20,146 bases of DNA from positions 1 through 20,146 of IMG/VR virus record IMGVR_UViG_3300035458_000023; one strand, given 5' to 3'. Below are positions 2,178-19,948 of this stretch, one piece after another (position 1 is the first letter of the stretch; each line of letters opens with the position of its first letter). The translations under genes were made by a program, and so were the position numbers. Under the pieces are notes generated by a model. The model ran no database searches, was not told the DNA's origin, and was given only the letters and a program-made list of their open reading frames with translations. This DNA is from a virus.

Positions 2178-2612
2178 ATGGCTGCGCAACCACCATTTGC
2201 CGTACAGCCATCACAGAATACCAAGCTTCCCACGCTGCAGGAAATGCAGTTTCTCAATTGGCTGAAACAAAACAATGTTCCGTTCAATCCAAACGCCCAG
2301 CAGTCCGATTATGATATGAGGGGGTTCTATCGAGGCATGCAGCAGGGAAACCCGATGGCGACGACCGGGATAAACCCTAACGATAACCTCATGCATTACA
2401 CGGACTATTGGAAGACACCCTCGCATCAGTCTTTCTCTGCAGGTTCTCAGTGGGCAACTCCGAGCACGCCAGATTGGATCAACGATAGCCAGTTAGCGGC
2501 ACCGAGTGGTAAAATCGTGTTTGACGAGAAACTTGCAAATGCACCGACCACTACGGATAACCTGATGGATAAAGCCATGATGGGCCTCATGCAGTCTCCG
2601 ACTGGACAATGA
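2178..2612 (+). CDS. Conserved phage protein (YDMRGF...DYWKTP...F type)
   Basis: 144 aa. ATG 2178 follows the previous stop by one base; an in-frame TTG at 2166 is the alternative. The product has a helical head (LQEMQFLNWLKQ), then YDMRGFYRGMQQGNP, HYTDYWKTPSHQSFS and GKIVFDEK. This order (YD.RG, a D.WK.P.H..FS segment, then a short G.V.FDE) recurs in small proteins of many tailed phages, often near lysis or structural genes. Their biochemical role is not established to my knowledge. No signal peptide or catalytic motif is seen. Confidence 0.8.
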   Translation: MAAQPPFAVQPSQNTKLPTLQEMQFLNWLKQNNVPFNPNAQQSDYDMRGFYRGMQQGNPMATTGINPNDNLMHYTDYWKTPSHQSFSAGSQWATPSTPDWINDSQLAAPSGKIVFDEKLANAPTTTDNLMDKAMMGLMQSPTGQ

Positions 2613-2616
2613 TTAG

Positions 2617-2865
2617 ATGAGAACCGGAACGGCGATATTTATTCTCGGGATTATATTCCTGGCCATGAACTCGGCGGGGTTCCGTAACGCGCTGTTCGGG
2701 CTTGTGGTGATTGTCGGGATCGCGATCGAGGTCCTGATCATGTATGGTTCGGACAAGCCACAGACGATATTCTATGACCATGACGCGCATCCGGCATTTC
2801 TGCTGCGGGTGGGTGATTCGTGCCCTGGCGATCGGCATATTTGGAATGGGTGGTGTGTGAAATGA
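2617..2865 (+). CDS. Small membrane protein
   Basis: 82 aa starting 4 bases after the previous stop, with only a weak ribosome binding site. Residues 4-20 and 25-45 are strongly hydrophobic (AIFILGIIFLAM and LFGLVVIVGIAIEVLIM) and read as two membrane segments. The polar C-terminus holds two cysteines (DSCPGD, WCVK). The size and two-helix pattern would suit a holin, spanin-like or superinfection-exclusion protein, but no endolysin is visible nearby, so I leave it unnamed. The stop is 5 bases before the tRNA. Confidence 0.65.
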   Translation: MRTGTAIFILGIIFLAMNSAGFRNALFGLVVIVGIAIEVLIMYGSDKPQTIFYDHDAHPAFLLRVGDSCPGDRHIWNGWCVK

Positions 2866-2870
2866 TATTT

Positions 2871-2942
2871 GCCGGGGTAGCTCAGCGGTAGAGCAGCGAC
2901 TTTGTAAGTCGATGGTCGTCGGTTCGAATCCCTCTCTCGGCA
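2871..2942 (+). tRNA. tRNA-Thr (anticodon UGU)
   Basis: A cloverleaf folds by eye: 7-bp acceptor GCCGGGG/TCTCGGC (two G.U pairs), TA, D-stem GCTC/GAGC with loop AGCGGTA, anticodon stem GCGAC/GTCGA (one mismatch at its base), loop TTTGTAA giving anticodon TGT, and T-loop TTCGAAT. The T-stem (GTCGG/CCCTC) has two mismatches, so the molecule is somewhat degenerate. CCA is not encoded. Phage tRNAs usually supply codons that are rare in the host. Confidence 0.85.
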
Positions 2943-2943
2943 C

Positions 2944-2990
2944 GCGGGGTTGGCCTATTGGTTGGGCAAGTTCGAGTCTTGCGCTTTCCG
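2944..2990 (+). pseudogene. tRNA-like remnant lacking an anticodon arm
   Basis: Directly after the tRNA comes a 47-base element with a perfect T-arm (GCAAG-TTCGAGT-CTTGC at 2966-2982), a D-arm-like segment (GGCCTATTGGTTGG) and ends that pair loosely (GCGGGGT with GCTTTCC, 6 of 7 with wobbles). No anticodon arm fits between the D-like and T segments. It looks like a second tRNA deleted internally. It sits between the intact tRNA and a homing-endonuclease-like gene, so a homing or repair event may have eroded it. The call is weak apart from the T-arm. Confidence 0.4.
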
Positions 2991-3013
2991 ATTTCCTTGT
3001 CTAAACTCTCCAT

Positions 3014-3562
3014 ATGAAGAAATATAACGATTATCGTCCTTATCGTCACCTCAACGATGATGGAAGACTTCCAAAATCTTTTACGAGTAAGAGGTCCCAT
3101 GCGAAAATGGAGGGAATTGAGTTTCATCTAACCATTGATGAATATTGCTCATTAATGGAATGTGGTGGAATAATATCTTCCGACATCAGACCTTGGGGCT
3201 ATCATTTAGCTAGATACGGCGACGTTGGGCCATATTCTCTAAATAATTGTCGATTTGTTCCATACCTTGTTAATCTGAGAGAAAAAGATATGACAAAAAC
3301 AACTGCTGTTCTATTGGAGTATTACAAAACACATCCGGGAACATTCGCGGGCAAATCTCACAAAGAAGAATCAAAAAGAAAGATTGGATTGGCCAATCAA
3401 AAGATGAAAGGTGATCTCAACTCTCAGTACGGTACTTGCTGGATTACTGATGGCAAGAATAGTCGAAAAATTAGGAATGGGAGCGATTTGCCAGAGGGAT
3501 GGAGATTAGGAAGAGTTAACGGCTGCAAGCCCCTCGAAATTGCACGCCACCGCCTCTCGTGA
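3014..3562 (+). CDS. Putative free-standing homing endonuclease (HNH-like, NUMOD3-type repeats)
   Basis: 182 aa from ATG 3014, with no clear ribosome binding site. The N-terminal half has GYHLARYGDVGPYSLNNCRF, the pattern of a divergent HNH-like nuclease family common in T4-like and other phages. Then come a NUMOD3-like DNA-binding segment (GKSHKEESKRKIG, residues about 114-126) and a WITDG...PEGWRLGR tail that is often appended to phage homing endonucleases. Base use is clearly more A/T-rich than in the flanking genes, a sign of recent transfer. It lies just after a tRNA and a tRNA remnant, a typical niche for such genes. The target site and activity are unknown. Confidence 0.75.
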   Translation: MKKYNDYRPYRHLNDDGRLPKSFTSKRSHAKMEGIEFHLTIDEYCSLMECGGIISSDIRPWGYHLARYGDVGPYSLNNCRFVPYLVNLREKDMTKTTAVLLEYYKTHPGTFAGKSHKEESKRKIGLANQKMKGDLNSQYGTCWITDGKNSRKIRNGSDLPEGWRLGRVNGCKPLEIARHRLS

Positions 3563-4464: not shown

Positions 4465-7017
4465 ATGTCTACATTTCGTCAGCGAACCGATGAAAAATAC
4501 CGTGTTGTCTGGGAGCCCCAACCAGGTCCCCAGACATGGTTGCTGTCGTGTCCTGTATTTGAGCTATTCTTCGGTGGCGCTCGCGGCGGCGGAAAATCCG
4601 ATGGGATGCTTGGCGATTTTGCATCTCATGCTGATGAATTCGGAGAGGATGCAATTGGATTAATTATCCGCAGGGAACTGACGCAACTCAAAGAATTAAT
4701 TGAACGAAGTAAGCAGATTTATACGCCGTTGGGCGCTGTTTGGCACGTTGGCGACAAGATGTGGCGCTTTCCAAATGGCGCTCGTTTGATTTTTGCGTAC
4801 ATCGATAACGATGCTGACGCCGATAAATATCAGGGCCACAGCTATAGCAGGGTTTATGTCGAAGAATTAGGAAATTTTCCCAGCCCGGTTCCGATATTTA
4901 AACTAATGGCTTGCATTCGTTCTGCCAACCCTAAGGTGCGTTGCGGGTTCAGAGCAACCGGAAATCCAGGCGGCCCAGGTCATTTGTGGATCAAACAGCG
5001 TTACATAATGCCTGCACCGCGTGGCATGCAGATCATCAAATCCAAGTTTGTGAATCCGTTCACCAAACAAGAATACGAAATAGAGCGCGTTTTTATTCCT
5101 TCGAAAATAACTGACAATCGATACACGAATAATTCTGCTTACGTCGCCCGCCTGCAAATGGTTGGCAATGCGCGGCTTGTTGACGCTTGGTTGCTCGGAA
5201 ACTGGGATATCATTGAGGGCGCGTTCTTTGATGAATGGGACGAGCGCAAGCACGTCATTGATCAATTTATTATTCCTGCGCACTGGACTAGATTTACGTC
5301 TATGGACTGGGGCGGGGCGCATCCGTTCTCTGTTGGATGGTGGGCGGTTGTGCCAGATAGGTACGATCAGATGCCAGAAAACATGCCGAGCACATTCAAC
5401 CCACGATATGCCTACAAGAACAATCTGCCGCGAGGTGCACTCGTGCGGTATCGTGAATGGTATGGTTGCCAAATCGACGAAAATGGCGAGTCGATGCACA
5501 ATAATACCGGTTTAAAACTTACGATTGAACAAATAGCTAGCGGTATAGCGGAGCGGGAAAAAAACGAGCCAAAAAATGATGCTGGGCGACCTCGGATGGC
5601 CTACAGAGTAGCTGGTACCGATCTTTTCCAAGAAAGAAGCGGTCCATCACTGGCAGAGCGCATGGCTGGAGACCCATATTATCAACATTGGATAGGAGCC
5701 AGCGTCGCGCGCACGGCAAGAGGCGATACTCTCGGTGGTTGGGATATGGTCCGCTCCCGCTTAATTGGGCAAGACGGTGACCCAATGATTTACTTTTTCC
5801 CGAATTGCATAGATAGTATAAGGACATTACCGGCGCTTCAGCATGACAAAAACAGAATCGAAGATGTTGATTCCTCCGGCGAAGATCACTGCTTTACGGG
5901 GGAAACACTTGTAAGAACATTGTATGGGGTATATTCGTTCGCTGAATTAGTTGGTTCCGAAGGCTTTACCCGTTCACATGACGGGAAATGGCATCCTTAC
6001 AGGTCGGTGAGGCTTGTAAGACGGAATCAGCGGATTGTTCGTCTTGAATTTAGCGAAGGAACAATAATTCGATGCACTCCAGACCACAAATTTCTGACGG
6101 CGAATGGGTGGATAAAGGCGGAAAATTTGATAGGGATGTCAATCCTGTCGTTATCTCCTCAACAATCCAAGAGTTTGATGGGACAAGGTATTACTTCTGT
6201 GGCGGCAGGTACTATCGACATAAGGGAAAATTGCTTCACCGAGCAGTGTGGCAAAAAAACCGTGGGCCAATCCAAGAAGGATGGGAAATCCACCACAAAG
6301 ACCGCAATCGACACAATAACAGCATCGAAAATCTGGACTGTTTATTGGAATTCGATCATCTCTCCGGCGAGCATGGAGATGAATTTGCTGAGCGGCTTAG
6401 GCCGCATATGGCCAAGGGTGTGGAGGCAGCTAAAGCGTGGCATGCAAGCCCTGAAGGTATCGATTGGCATCGTAAGCACTATACTTTGCACTGCGCCGAA
6501 GCGATGCATCGCAGGGAGCGACAAGTTTGTAAGCATTGCAGTTCCGAATATGATGCCCATCACAACAATCTATTCTGCTCCAACAAGTGCAAATCAGCGT
6601 GGCGACGGGCATCCGGTATCGACAATGAAAAGCGATCTTGTTCCGAGTGCGGAGCGGAATTTGTGGTCAACCGATATAGCAGAGTCAAAACATGCTCTCT
6701 TGTTTGCGGCAGCAAGAGCAGTGCAAAAACCAGGACCGGTGTGTCTTACCCTAGACGACGCGGGGTGGGATGATGTGTATTGTCTAACCGTACCGGAGAC
6801 GGGGAACTTCGAACTTGCAAATGGGATGATAGTTGCGAATTGTGGTGATGAAATTCGGTACGCCTGTATGTCCCGCCCCTATTCGCGCCCCGAAGGCGAC
6901 CCCGACAAAGGCCGCATCATGACGGTAGGCCCGGACAATCAGTTGACCATAAAGGACGCGATGGGCGACATGGAGATGCCGCGCGAGGCGAAGTTCATTC
7001 CGGTTAAGAGGATTTGA
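4465..7017 (+). CDS. terL: Terminase large subunit, interrupted by an intein
   Basis: 850-aa precursor. The ATPase domain has Walker A GGARGGGKS (residues 37-45), Walker B-like RVYVEE (129-134) and RATGNPGG (163-170). The RNase H-like nuclease part begins with SMDWGG (Asp281). Residues 476-792 are an intein inserted after SSGEDH and before CGDEIRYACMSRP, a conserved segment near the end of the nuclease domain. Splicing would give a 533-aa enzyme, a normal length for TerL. It drives DNA into the prohead through the portal encoded downstream and cuts concatemers. No small terminase is recognisable; the HTH-like gene just downstream is a candidate. ATG 4465 has only a weak ribosome binding site behind a palindrome. 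Confidence 0.93.
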   Translation: MSTFRQRTDEKYRVVWEPQPGPQTWLLSCPVFELFFGGARGGGKSDGMLGDFASHADEFGEDAIGLIIRRELTQLKELIERSKQIYTPLGAVWHVGDKMWRFPNGARLIFAYIDNDADADKYQGHSYSRVYVEELGNFPSPVPIFKLMACIRSANPKVRCGFRATGNPGGPGHLWIKQRYIMPAPRGMQIIKSKFVNPFTKQEYEIERVFIPSKITDNRYTNNSAYVARLQMVGNARLVDAWLLGNWDIIEGAFFDEWDERKHVIDQFIIPAHWTRFTSMDWGGAHPFSVGWWAVVPDRYDQMPENMPSTFNPRYAYKNNLPRGALVRYREWYGCQIDENGESMHNNTGLKLTIEQIASGIAEREKNEPKNDAGRPRMAYRVAGTDLFQERSGPSLAERMAGDPYYQHWIGASVARTARGDTLGGWDMVRSRLIGQDGDPMIYFFPNCIDSIRTLPALQHDKNRIEDVDSSGEDHCFTGETLVRTLYGVYSFAELVGSEGFTRSHDGKWHPYRSVRLVRRNQRIVRLEFSEGTIIRCTPDHKFLTANGWIKAENLIGMSILSLSPQQSKSLMGQGITSVAAGTIDIRENCFTEQCGKKTVGQSKKDGKSTTKTAIDTITASKIWTVYWNSIISPASMEMNLLSGLGRIWPRVWRQLKRGMQALKVSIGIVSTILCTAPKRCIAGSDKFVSIAVPNMMPITTIYSAPTSANQRGDGHPVSTMKSDLVPSAERNLWSTDIAESKHALLFAAARAVQKPGPVCLTLDDAGWDDVYCLTVPETGNFELANGMIVANCGDEIRYACMSRPYSRPEGDPDKGRIMTVGPDNQLTIKDAMGDMEMPREAKFIPVKRI
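5890..6840 (+). mobile_element. Intein in the terminase (317 aa) with a dual-coding centre
   Basis: It begins with Cys1 in CFTGETLV (block A), has the block B TPDH motif (precursor residues 538-541, CTPDHKFLTANGW), and ends with DVYCLTVPETGNFELANG (block F) and GMIVAN before the +1 Cys (block G). The usual penultimate His is Ala; the terminal Asn and +1 Cys are kept. The splicing halves span about 90 residues at the front and 25 at the back. The intervening 200 or so residues resemble no protein in this frame, because another frame there encodes the HNH endonuclease at 6072-6773. The frame nevertheless has no stop across it. Confidence 0.9.
6072..6773 (+). CDS. HNH homing endonuclease nested out of frame inside the intein
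   Basis: 233 aa, in a different forward frame from terminase and intein. ATG 6072 has GAAGGA about 11 bases upstream and a stop at 6051. The HNH core is KGKLLHRAVWQKNRG, then GWEIHHKDRNRHNNSIENLD (His74, His75, Asn82, Asn83). Two zinc ribbons follow: Cys153/156 with 169/173, and Cys190/193 with 208/212, the usual tail of such phage nucleases. The stop lies where intein block F begins, so the gene sits exactly between the splicing halves. Expected role: cutting intein-free terminase genes to spread the intein. Independent translation from an internal site is inferred; ribosomal frameshifting is the alternative. Confidence 0.85.
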   Translation: MHSRPQISDGEWVDKGGKFDRDVNPVVISSTIQEFDGTRYYFCGGRYYRHKGKLLHRAVWQKNRGPIQEGWEIHHKDRNRHNNSIENLDCLLEFDHLSGEHGDEFAERLRPHMAKGVEAAKAWHASPEGIDWHRKHYTLHCAEAMHRRERQVCKHCSSEYDAHHNNLFCSNKCKSAWRRASGIDNEKRSCSECGAEFVVNRYSRVKTCSLVCGSKSSAKTRTGVSYPRRRGVG

Positions 7018-7021
7018 GTGC

Positions 7022-7276
7022 ATGGGTAATAGCCGCTTCAAACGGTTCGATTTTCGCGAGGATGATTATATCGTTGCCTATTTGGGTTGTGCTGGCGAAA
7101 ATGCGGTCGCGCGTGATTTGGGTCGCCAGAATACATCGATCAAGGTGCGAGCTAAGAAACTGAGAGATAGTGGTGCTTGGGAGGCGATCGAGCGAATCAG
7201 ACAAGCGCAACAAGACTATCTCGCATGCTTAGGTTACGATGAAGTAGATCAATCTCTAGCAACACTAGCCCGGTAA
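7022..7276 (+). CDS. Small HTH/SANT-like DNA-binding protein
   Basis: 84 aa starting 4 bases after the terminase stop. The segment EDDYIVAYLGCAGENAVARDLGRQNTS-(I)KVRAKKL reads as a short three-helix fold of the Myb/SANT or GcrA-like kind: an acidic helix, a G-turn, an ARDLGR helix and a recognition-type helix. A Gln-rich amphipathic helix follows. It could be a transcription regulator. Its place between terminase and portal also makes a small-terminase-like DNA-recognition role possible, but it is shorter than usual for TerS. Both are inference. Confidence 0.7.
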   Translation: MGNSRFKRFDFREDDYIVAYLGCAGENAVARDLGRQNTSIKVRAKKLRDSGAWEAIERIRQAQQDYLACLGYDEVDQSLATLAR

Positions 7277-17638: not shown

Positions 17639-19948
17639 ATGGCCTCTCCCGGCCTTTCCGAAATTGTTACGACGACCCTCCGCAATAGGACGGGTTCGCT
17701 GCAGGATAATGTGTCTTAACTTCGGGACACAATAAACCGGGTGAAACGGGGAATCTCTCAGGGCAGACTGAGACAATCCCGTAGCAAGCCACCTATGTAA
17801 GGCGAAAGCCCTAGGGCGGTGGAAGCTCTAACGACCAGATGGTGACGAAAGAATAATCCATCCACGAGCGCCCGGCTCTTCATAGTTTAATGCCAAAGAT
17901 GGGGTTCCAGAATGGCAGCAGTCTACGGAATAGTTCACCTAGCTTCGATGAAAACTCTTGTTGGTAGCGTTGGAGACGGCAGAGAAAATTCAAAGCGTCT
18001 CTATAAATCAACAAAGTCCAAGCTATCGAAACGGTTCAGAGAACATAAAAGCCTTCTAAACCGAGGCAAGCATGCTGAACCGGACTTGCAGAGTGATTGG
18101 ACCCAATACGGTCCCGAAGCTTTTGCAATGAGATTGCTGGAAGAAATCGAAGGCTCGGTTGAAAGCAAGAGGGAAGCCGAACTTCGTTGGATGGCTAATC
18201 TCGATAAGCAAGGTCTTCTCTACAATAAAAACAGACTAGCTTATGCGCTTTCACCTGAAGCAATAACCAAGGGTATTGAGGCGTCTCGCCATGTAGCGGG
18301 AAACCGATGGACCCCAGAGGCGAACTTGAAACGTAGATTGTCACAGCTTGGTAAGCCGAAAGGTCATGGCGCAAAGATTAGCGCAACCAAGCGGGCTAAG
18401 AAGATGATGAGATGGCCTGACCTGTGCGGTGACGTACAGAAAATATCGGGTAAAGAACCGGTATGAAGAACAAGTTGGCGAAACAACGCGTTACTCCATC
18501 GGTTGAACAAGAAGGGAAACATCAAAACCTTCGACGGCGGCCGAACCATCGTTCAAGAGTTGGATTACAACAACAACTCGACGTTCGTATGGTACAGCGG
18601 GTTAATTGAGGCCCCTTTGGCAGCGTAAGCTCCATCGAATAACTGGGTGAAACGGAGAATCCCTCGGAATTAAGCTGATTATTTCGAGACAACTCCGTAG
18701 CAAGCCGCATACGTAGCAACCCCACACGGTTGTCAGGGATGCGGAAGCTCTAGAGACTACGTGGTGACGAAAGAATAACCCACGCACGAGCGCCCGGCAC
18801 CTTTCGAGGTGATGAAATAGTCCGACCCAAGCGGTGACGTTTGGAATTTCTCGAATAAAGAGTCGAGAAGGAGAAATGTTGAGATCAAACTTTGAATATC
18901 AGCCCTTCGCAGACGTTTACTGCGGCGGAATTCCCGATCAGGCAGGCCGCTCTTGCGATCTCCATTTCGGGTCTGGAGGAAATCCAGAACAGTGGTTAAC
19001 TGCTTGGCCACTTAATCGGACTAATTCGGTGGACCTCTCAGTAAGGCCTGAGACAATACCGAGCCAAGCCGCACATGTAGCCCGAGAGGGTCAGGGGTGC
19101 GGAAGGTGTAACGACCAGGGCTTGACGAAAGAATAATAGCCCCACGAACGTCCGACACTCCTAACAAGGGTGAAGAGCTAGTCTGGGCTGCAGGGCGACT
19201 TGCAGAAATCGGTCATAAACAGGCCGATAGAGAACAAACGGAAGAAGCCATTATCAACCTGCTTGAGGGCCGCGTCAAAAACGGTGAGCGCACTTTTTTG
19301 AACGGACTCAGCCAAGGGGCGTACGGCGACGGCACGGTTGCCAACTCGATTGGCGGCTTGCAGTTGCTTGTGGCGGCGTCGCCGAACACGGGTATCGTGG
19401 GCGGTATCGATCGGTCGCAGTATTCGTTCTGGCGGAACATCACGTTCTCGGCGGCAACGAATGGTGGCGCACCGACATCGGCAGCGAACATCCAGGACTA
19501 CATGGATCAGATGTACGTACAGCTTGTGCGTGGCAATGACCATCCGGACCTGATCGTGGCCGACAACAACATGTATCGGTACTACCTGTCGTCATTGCAG
19601 GCCATCCAGCGCTTGCAGGGAGACACCGAACTGGCGAACCTCGGATTTGAGACGCTGAAGTATCTCAACTGCGATGTCGTCCTCGACGGTGGCTACCAGG
19701 GCCAGTCAACCGATCCGCTGCCGTTCCAGACTTCATCGGGAACATCGGCAGTTGGTGGCGCGCCGCTGAACAACATGTTCTTTCTTAACACCAACTATAT
19801 CCATTGGCGTCCGTATGCCGGCCGCAACATGGTCCCGCTTGATCCCGATCGGTTCAGCGTGAACCAAGACGCGATGGTCCGTTTGGTGGGTTGGGGCGGG
19901 AATATGAGCCTTAGCTGCGCTTTTCTGCAAGGAGTTATAACGACTTAG
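17639..19948 (+). CDS. Major capsid protein gene, four exons split by three group I introns
   Basis: The exons are 17639-17716, 18479-18602, 18884-18996 and 19241-19948; joined they give 340 aa, a normal size. Exon 1 reads ASPGLSEIVTTTLRNRTG; exon 2 NNALLHRLNKKGNIKTF and GGRTIVQELDY to WYSG. The tyrosine codon is completed across intron 2, then exon 3 gives QTLNISPS, FTAAEFPIRQAALAISISGL and EEIQNSG. Exon 4 continues EEAIINLLEGR, ANSIGGLQLLV, GIVGGIDRSQYSFWRN and PDLIVADNN, ending NMSLSCAFLQGVITT. This is a known metagenomic phage MCP family, probably HK97-like in fold. Unspliced mRNA would yield only 26 residues. AGGGGAA precedes ATG 17639. Confidence 0.9.
17717..18478 (+). ncRNA. Group I intron 1 of the MCP gene (762 nt, with ORF)
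   Basis: P1: exon GTGTCT (17711-17716) pairs with GGACAC (17725-17730), with the U.G at the splice site. P10: TTCG (17721-17724) pairs with exon start CGAA (18479 on). P5 CTCAG/CTGAG (17757-17761, 17768-17772), P6 CCACC/GGTGG (17789-17793, 17818-17822) and P8 GATGG/CCATC (17838-17842, 17858-17862) are present. Q-like GACAATCC-CGTAGCAAGCC and R-like CTAACGACCAGA are also visible; the S element (near TCATAGTTT) is weak. The intron ends in G at 18478. The ORF lies after the core, in the P9 region. Confidence 0.88.
17912..18466 (+). CDS. GIY-YIG-type intron endonuclease, possibly degenerate
   Basis: 184 aa, wholly within intron 1, ending 12 bases before the 3' splice site. The N-terminus AVYGIVHLASMKTLVGS occupies the place of the GIY...YIG signature, but the two tyrosines of the motif appear as Val8 and Leu16. 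Downstream elements are conserved: LSKRFREHKSLLNRG with the expected Arg (41 or 43), SDWTQYGPEAFAMRLLEEIE, and an acidic SKREAELRWM segment. The C-terminus has a NUMOD3-like repeat region (GIEASRHVAGNRWTP, LSQLGKPKGHG) for DNA binding. It would cut intronless MCP genes. The start is ATG 17912, with only a GGGG-type ribosome binding site. Confidence 0.8.
   Translation: MAAVYGIVHLASMKTLVGSVGDGRENSKRLYKSTKSKLSKRFREHKSLLNRGKHAEPDLQSDWTQYGPEAFAMRLLEEIEGSVESKREAELRWMANLDKQGLLYNKNRLAYALSPEAITKGIEASRHVAGNRWTPEANLKRRLSQLGKPKGHGAKISATKRAKKMMRWPDLCGDVQKISGKEPV
18603..18883 (+). ncRNA. Group I intron 2 of the MCP gene (281 nt, no ORF)
   Basis: P1: exon GGGT (18599-18602) with GCCC (18611-18614). P10: TTGA (18606-18609) with exon TCAA (18885-18888). 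P6 is CCGCAT/ATGCGG (18705-18710, 18739-18744), P8 CGTGG/CCACG (18760-18764, 18780-18784), and P7 GACTA (in R) with TAGTC (in the S element ATGAAATAGTCCGA). A P9-type hairpin TTCTCG/CGAGAA follows. The intron ends in G 18883, which restores the Tyr codon (T from exon 2 plus AT). It shares GGGTGAAACGG, GGAAGCTCTA and CACGAGCGCCCGGC with intron 1, so the two are close relatives. Confidence 0.9.
18997..19240 (+). ncRNA. Group I intron 3 of the MCP gene (244 nt, no ORF)
   Basis: P1: exon AGTGGT (18991-18996) with GCCACT (19007-19012), 6 bp including U.G. P5 is CTCAG/CTGAG, P6 CCGCAC/GTGCGG (19069-19074, 19097-19102), and P8 GGGCT/AGCCC (19118-19122, 19138-19142). Q-like GACAATACCGAGCCAAGCC and R-like GTAACGACCAGG are present, with S-like GAGCTAGTCTGG. 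Two 3' hairpins follow (CTGCA/TGCAG and ATCGG/CCGAT). The 3' end at G 19240 is the least certain junction. It is chosen because SG|EEAIINLLEGR keeps the protein at family length and matches the related segment at 498-839; 19195 is the main alternative. Confidence 0.85.

Follow-up and report, generated by a model that had tools for sequence, protein, structure and literature searches.

A phage terminase intein whose linker DNA also encodes an HNH nuclease in a second reading frame, an arrangement that recurs in about sixty divergent phage genes

Inteins that carry a homing endonuclease usually carry it in frame, as a domain of the intein itself. A terminase (TerL) gene in the 20,146-nucleotide virus record IMGVR_UViG_3300035458_000023 (positions 1 to 20,146 of the record, referred to as the window) raised the question of whether a single stretch of DNA can instead encode an intein linker in one frame and a complete nuclease in another. 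A preliminary description, made from the sequence alone, had proposed such a nested, dual-coding homing unit. To determine whether this arrangement is real, we first re-examined the locus, all features of which lie on the plus strand. The TerL ORF (4465-7017) has no internal stop. Its N-extein (4465-5889), which comprises the ATPase and most of the nuclease domain, matched the PHROG terminase large subunit (5.7e-32), and its C-extein (6841-7017, including the stop) begins CGDEIRY in nuclease motif III. Between them lies an intein of 317 aa (5890-6840), starting CFTGETLV and ending MIVAN before Cys+1. Its N-terminal splicing half (5890-6159) contains blocks A and B, with C1 and T63-P-D-H66 (TIGR01445, 5.6e-7), and its C-terminal half (6730-6840) contains blocks F and G and ends in Asn317 (TIGR01443, 8.1e-5). 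Pfam Intein_splicing was also detected in this frame (1.2e-9). The penultimate intein residue is Ala rather than the usual His.

The DNA between the two halves encodes, in the intein frame -1, an intact 233-aa HNH_3 protein (6072-6773), running from ATG to a TGA at 6771-6773 just before block F. This ORF matched Pfam HNH_3 (2.4e-12; residues 53-90, core at 6228-6341) and phrog_15471 (3.1e-39). Residues H74, H75, N87 and H96 are invariant in 55 relatives, as are the four Cys of a first zinc ribbon (6528-6590; C153, C156, C169, C173), while those of a second ribbon (6639-6707; C190, C193, C208, C212) are nearly invariant. No group I intron core surrounds the HNH, since no Rfam match was found in 5700-7100 up to E 0.1. 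Three group I intron matches do occur elsewhere in the window, near the coat-type gene (18987-19205, E 2.6e-11; 18594-18844, 7e-9; 17677-18439, 8e-6), the last holding most of an ORF (17912-18466) that resembles by eye a GIY-YIG nuclease but has no Pfam hit. A 182-aa ORF at 3014-3562 similarly resembles a homing-type nuclease without a Pfam match. The window also contains a tRNA gene (2871-2942; RF00005) and a histidine phosphatase superfamily gene (1454-2176; PF00300, 1.7e-32), and begins (1-30) with a frame reading SFPTRRSSDL.

To establish whether the open intein frame could be due to chance, we shuffled the HNH codons synonymously. The intein frame remained free of stops in 5% of cases with the gene's own codons and in 2.6% with flanking codon usage. 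The argument of the preliminary description, that some 234 codons without a stop are unlikely by chance, is therefore weaker than it appeared, because the HNH protein itself yields few stops in that frame. This locus alone would be only suggestive, and we turned to its relatives.

Two IMG/VR contigs, L001 and L002, matched the intein frame over its full length at 55% and kept the HNH at 70% in the same phase. A tblastn search of annotated phages identified the same arrangement in a gut phage (MT838676), Tetrasphaera phage TJE1, Acinetobacter phage Highwayman and Rhodobacteraceae phage MD07, whereas a search of plasmids added nothing of note. Profile scans of viral and genome contigs yielded 94 non-redundant HNH loci (under 80% nucleotide identity). 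Of these, 62 have both intein halves in one open frame with the HNH in the -1 phase, 22 are free-standing, 9 have both blocks but stops between them or different frames, and 1 is cut by the contig end. None has the HNH as an in-frame intein domain. GC content of the nested loci ranges from 0.31 to 0.70. The nine loci with stops or different frames are split, interrupted or remnant. L047 and L054 appear to be fractured TerL genes (about 2200-3220), in which the N-intein ends in a stop, the HNH follows and the C-intein has its own ATG; L108 and L115 share the phase of the nested loci but contain seven stops of two or three kinds between the intein halves, being split or decayed; and L017 (Brochothrix phage BL3, 1936-2544) keeps only about 60 aa of the HNH, with two stops in the intein frame, an apparent relic.

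All 60 nested loci tested lack a stop in the intein frame over the HNH domain, whereas the 20 free-standing ones tested average 5.6 stops and none has zero. With one representative per 50% identity cluster, 42 of 42 nested HNHs have no stop, against 0 of 17 free-standing ones (log10 P about -53 for the nested set under own-codon shuffling). Since these loci share ancestry, this figure overstates the evidence and is a guide rather than a strict probability; 'nested' was itself defined by an open frame, although only 9 loci with both blocks failed that test. Across relatives the case against chance is nonetheless overwhelming. We conclude that the arrangement is real and conserved in many divergent loci in the same place and phase.

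We next asked which of the two frames is selected. Between the window and L001, HNH codon positions 1/2/3 differ by 0.17/0.17/0.56, HNH third positions being linker second positions. dN/dS for this pair was near 0 for the HNH frame, 1.7 for the linker frame and 0.12 for the Hint half. Eight other pairs agreed, with the HNH at 0.3 or less and the linker frame at about 1 or more. Furthermore, linker similarity among divergent pairs was close to that expected from the HNH protein plus the no-stop rule (mean z about 0.3). Structure prediction was in agreement. The Hint halves were modelled with pLDDT 89-98 (89-98 over residues 1-90; 95-98 for the C-terminal half), while the linker (6160-6729; residues 91-280) gave about 44-55 with almost no secondary structure and is predicted to be disordered. 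The Hint model matched the Npu DnaE intein (Foldseek, E 6e-6) and many other inteins, gp41-1 being the nearest solved intein by profile. The HNH frame was modelled confidently apart from its ends (mean pLDDT 89.8), but Foldseek gave no convincing fold match for the whole model. Thus the earlier suggestion that both frames are kept holds only in part: the HNH frame is under purifying selection as a protein, while the linker frame is only kept free of stops.

At least 45 of 57 N-exteins matched terminase large subunit families, and the junctions lie in nuclease motif III, at points differing by a few residues. Two nested inteins (L022, 2250-3206; L031, 2253-3203) end in Gln rather than Asn before Cys+1. 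Interestingly, close relatives lack the insert exactly: L136, whose TerL is 90% identical, reads SSGEDHCGDEIRYACMSRP uninterrupted through the site. A phage with a natural HNH-less mini-intein at the same site (L018) shows that the long linker is dispensable.

The HNH frame opens about at the end of block B and stops about at block F (median -3 and -7 nt). ATG is available in 56 of 62 loci and GTG in 5, and the best start has a better Shine-Dalgarno match than controls (-5.3 vs -3.2 kcal/mol; paired P = 5e-5). In the window itself, an AAGGA at 6056-6060, 11 nt before the ATG at 6072, is a plausible but weak signal (-5.7 kcal/mol; 17.5% of control sets are as good). The first 20 or so HNH residues overlap block B and are predicted to be disordered, so the true start is uncertain. 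Internal initiation on the TerL transcript is favoured, by inference.

Taken together, these results are best explained by a phase-locked, dual-coding homing unit, a reading in which we have good confidence although it rests on sequence and not on expression, splicing or cleavage data. The intein, two Hint halves joined by a linker of about 190 aa predicted to be disordered, should excise itself in cis and leave intact terminase. The HNH nuclease, placed where inteins usually carry an in-frame endonuclease domain, is probably made as a separate protein; it would cut the intein-less TerL allele at motif III in co-infecting phages, and repair would copy the whole unit. That this represents a widespread, ancient class of dual-coding inteins in phage terminases, with the nuclease always in one phase and made by internal initiation, is probable.

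Other explanations are less satisfactory. Ribosomes could slip from the intein frame into the HNH frame just after block B, producing a TerL-intein-N-HNH fusion, a frameshifted version of the canonical bifunctional intein. The constant -1 phase, the opening of the HNH frame only near the end of block B, and an AAATTTG at 6123 in the right register in the window would fit this view. However, slippery heptamers are not enriched in the entry region (4 seen against 5.8 expected), whereas start codons with Shine-Dalgarno matches are, and free-standing homologues use normal starts; frameshifting as the main route thus appears unlikely. It is also unlikely that the HNH is a DNA-packaging helper of terminase, as in HK97. 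The family does sit in or beside TerL, and HK97-type HNH proteins assist cos cleavage (discussed in PMC10448857), but this HNH comes and goes with the intein between close relatives, and its best solved relative by sequence is the homing nuclease I-HmuI (a weak match, E 0.0018).

A degenerate intein, with a relic HNH and a linker frame open by coincidence or transiently, is very unlikely. The modest improbability of the open frame in the window alone and the existence of relics such as BL3 leave room for it, but the low dN/dS and invariant HNH and Cys residues, together with persistence of the arrangement in 42 lineages under 50% identical, bring it close to refutation. Finally, assembly or sequencing indels that displaced an in-frame HNH, for which we found no evidence, are excluded by the same phase in 62 non-redundant loci, including independent contigs and four INPHARED phage records.

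The origin of the unit is less clear. Free-standing members in named phages sit beside TerL or the terminase genes; those of phages PAE1, SN1 and FBPa53, next to TerL, are 43-47% identical and lie outside any intein. Nested and free-standing forms mix on the HNH tree (at least 17 changes), but this tree is weakly supported and cannot decide between one origin and many. The constant phase need not mean one origin, since in free-standing copies this frame has about 5.6 stops and the other alternative frame about 15, making it the easier one to clear. A likely path, whose direction is not proven, is that an HNH gene targeting TerL entered a mini-intein, giving either a split gene or, once stops were purged, the nested form.

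The preliminary description knew of no described example, but the arrangement is not quite without precedent. In the ShiLan element of mycobacteriophage DNA methylases (Arsenault et al. 2025, PMC11855218; also PMC12613952), an HNH with zinc fingers is likewise encoded out of frame inside a host gene whose own frame stays open, with a patchy, mobile distribution. The authors found no intein splicing domain and think that the insert stays in the methylase, whereas here a clear Hint intein surrounds the HNH, so the host protein can be restored. Canonical large inteins (LAGLIDADG, or HNH as in Dalgaard 1997) also have an endonuclease between blocks B and F, but in the intein frame. In fractured genes with split inteins, a free-standing endonuclease gene appears to lie between the halves (Dassa et al. 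2009), as in L047 and L054; in the window and 61 others the intein frame runs unbroken, so splicing would be in cis. Full-text searches, which covered only part of the literature, found no out-of-frame HNH in an intein.

Textbook inteins carry the homing nuclease as a domain of the same polypeptide. Here the two functions are separated by reading frame but not by DNA, in about 60 divergent genes, most of them recognised as terminase genes, from phages of many hosts. This gives a way for a free-standing nuclease gene to colonise an intein without splitting the host gene, and provides a large natural data set for the evolution of overlapping genes with sharply different constraints on the two frames. 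It also means that nucleases inside annotated terminases are being missed, as in the TJE1, Highwayman and MD07 records, which annotate only the terminase.
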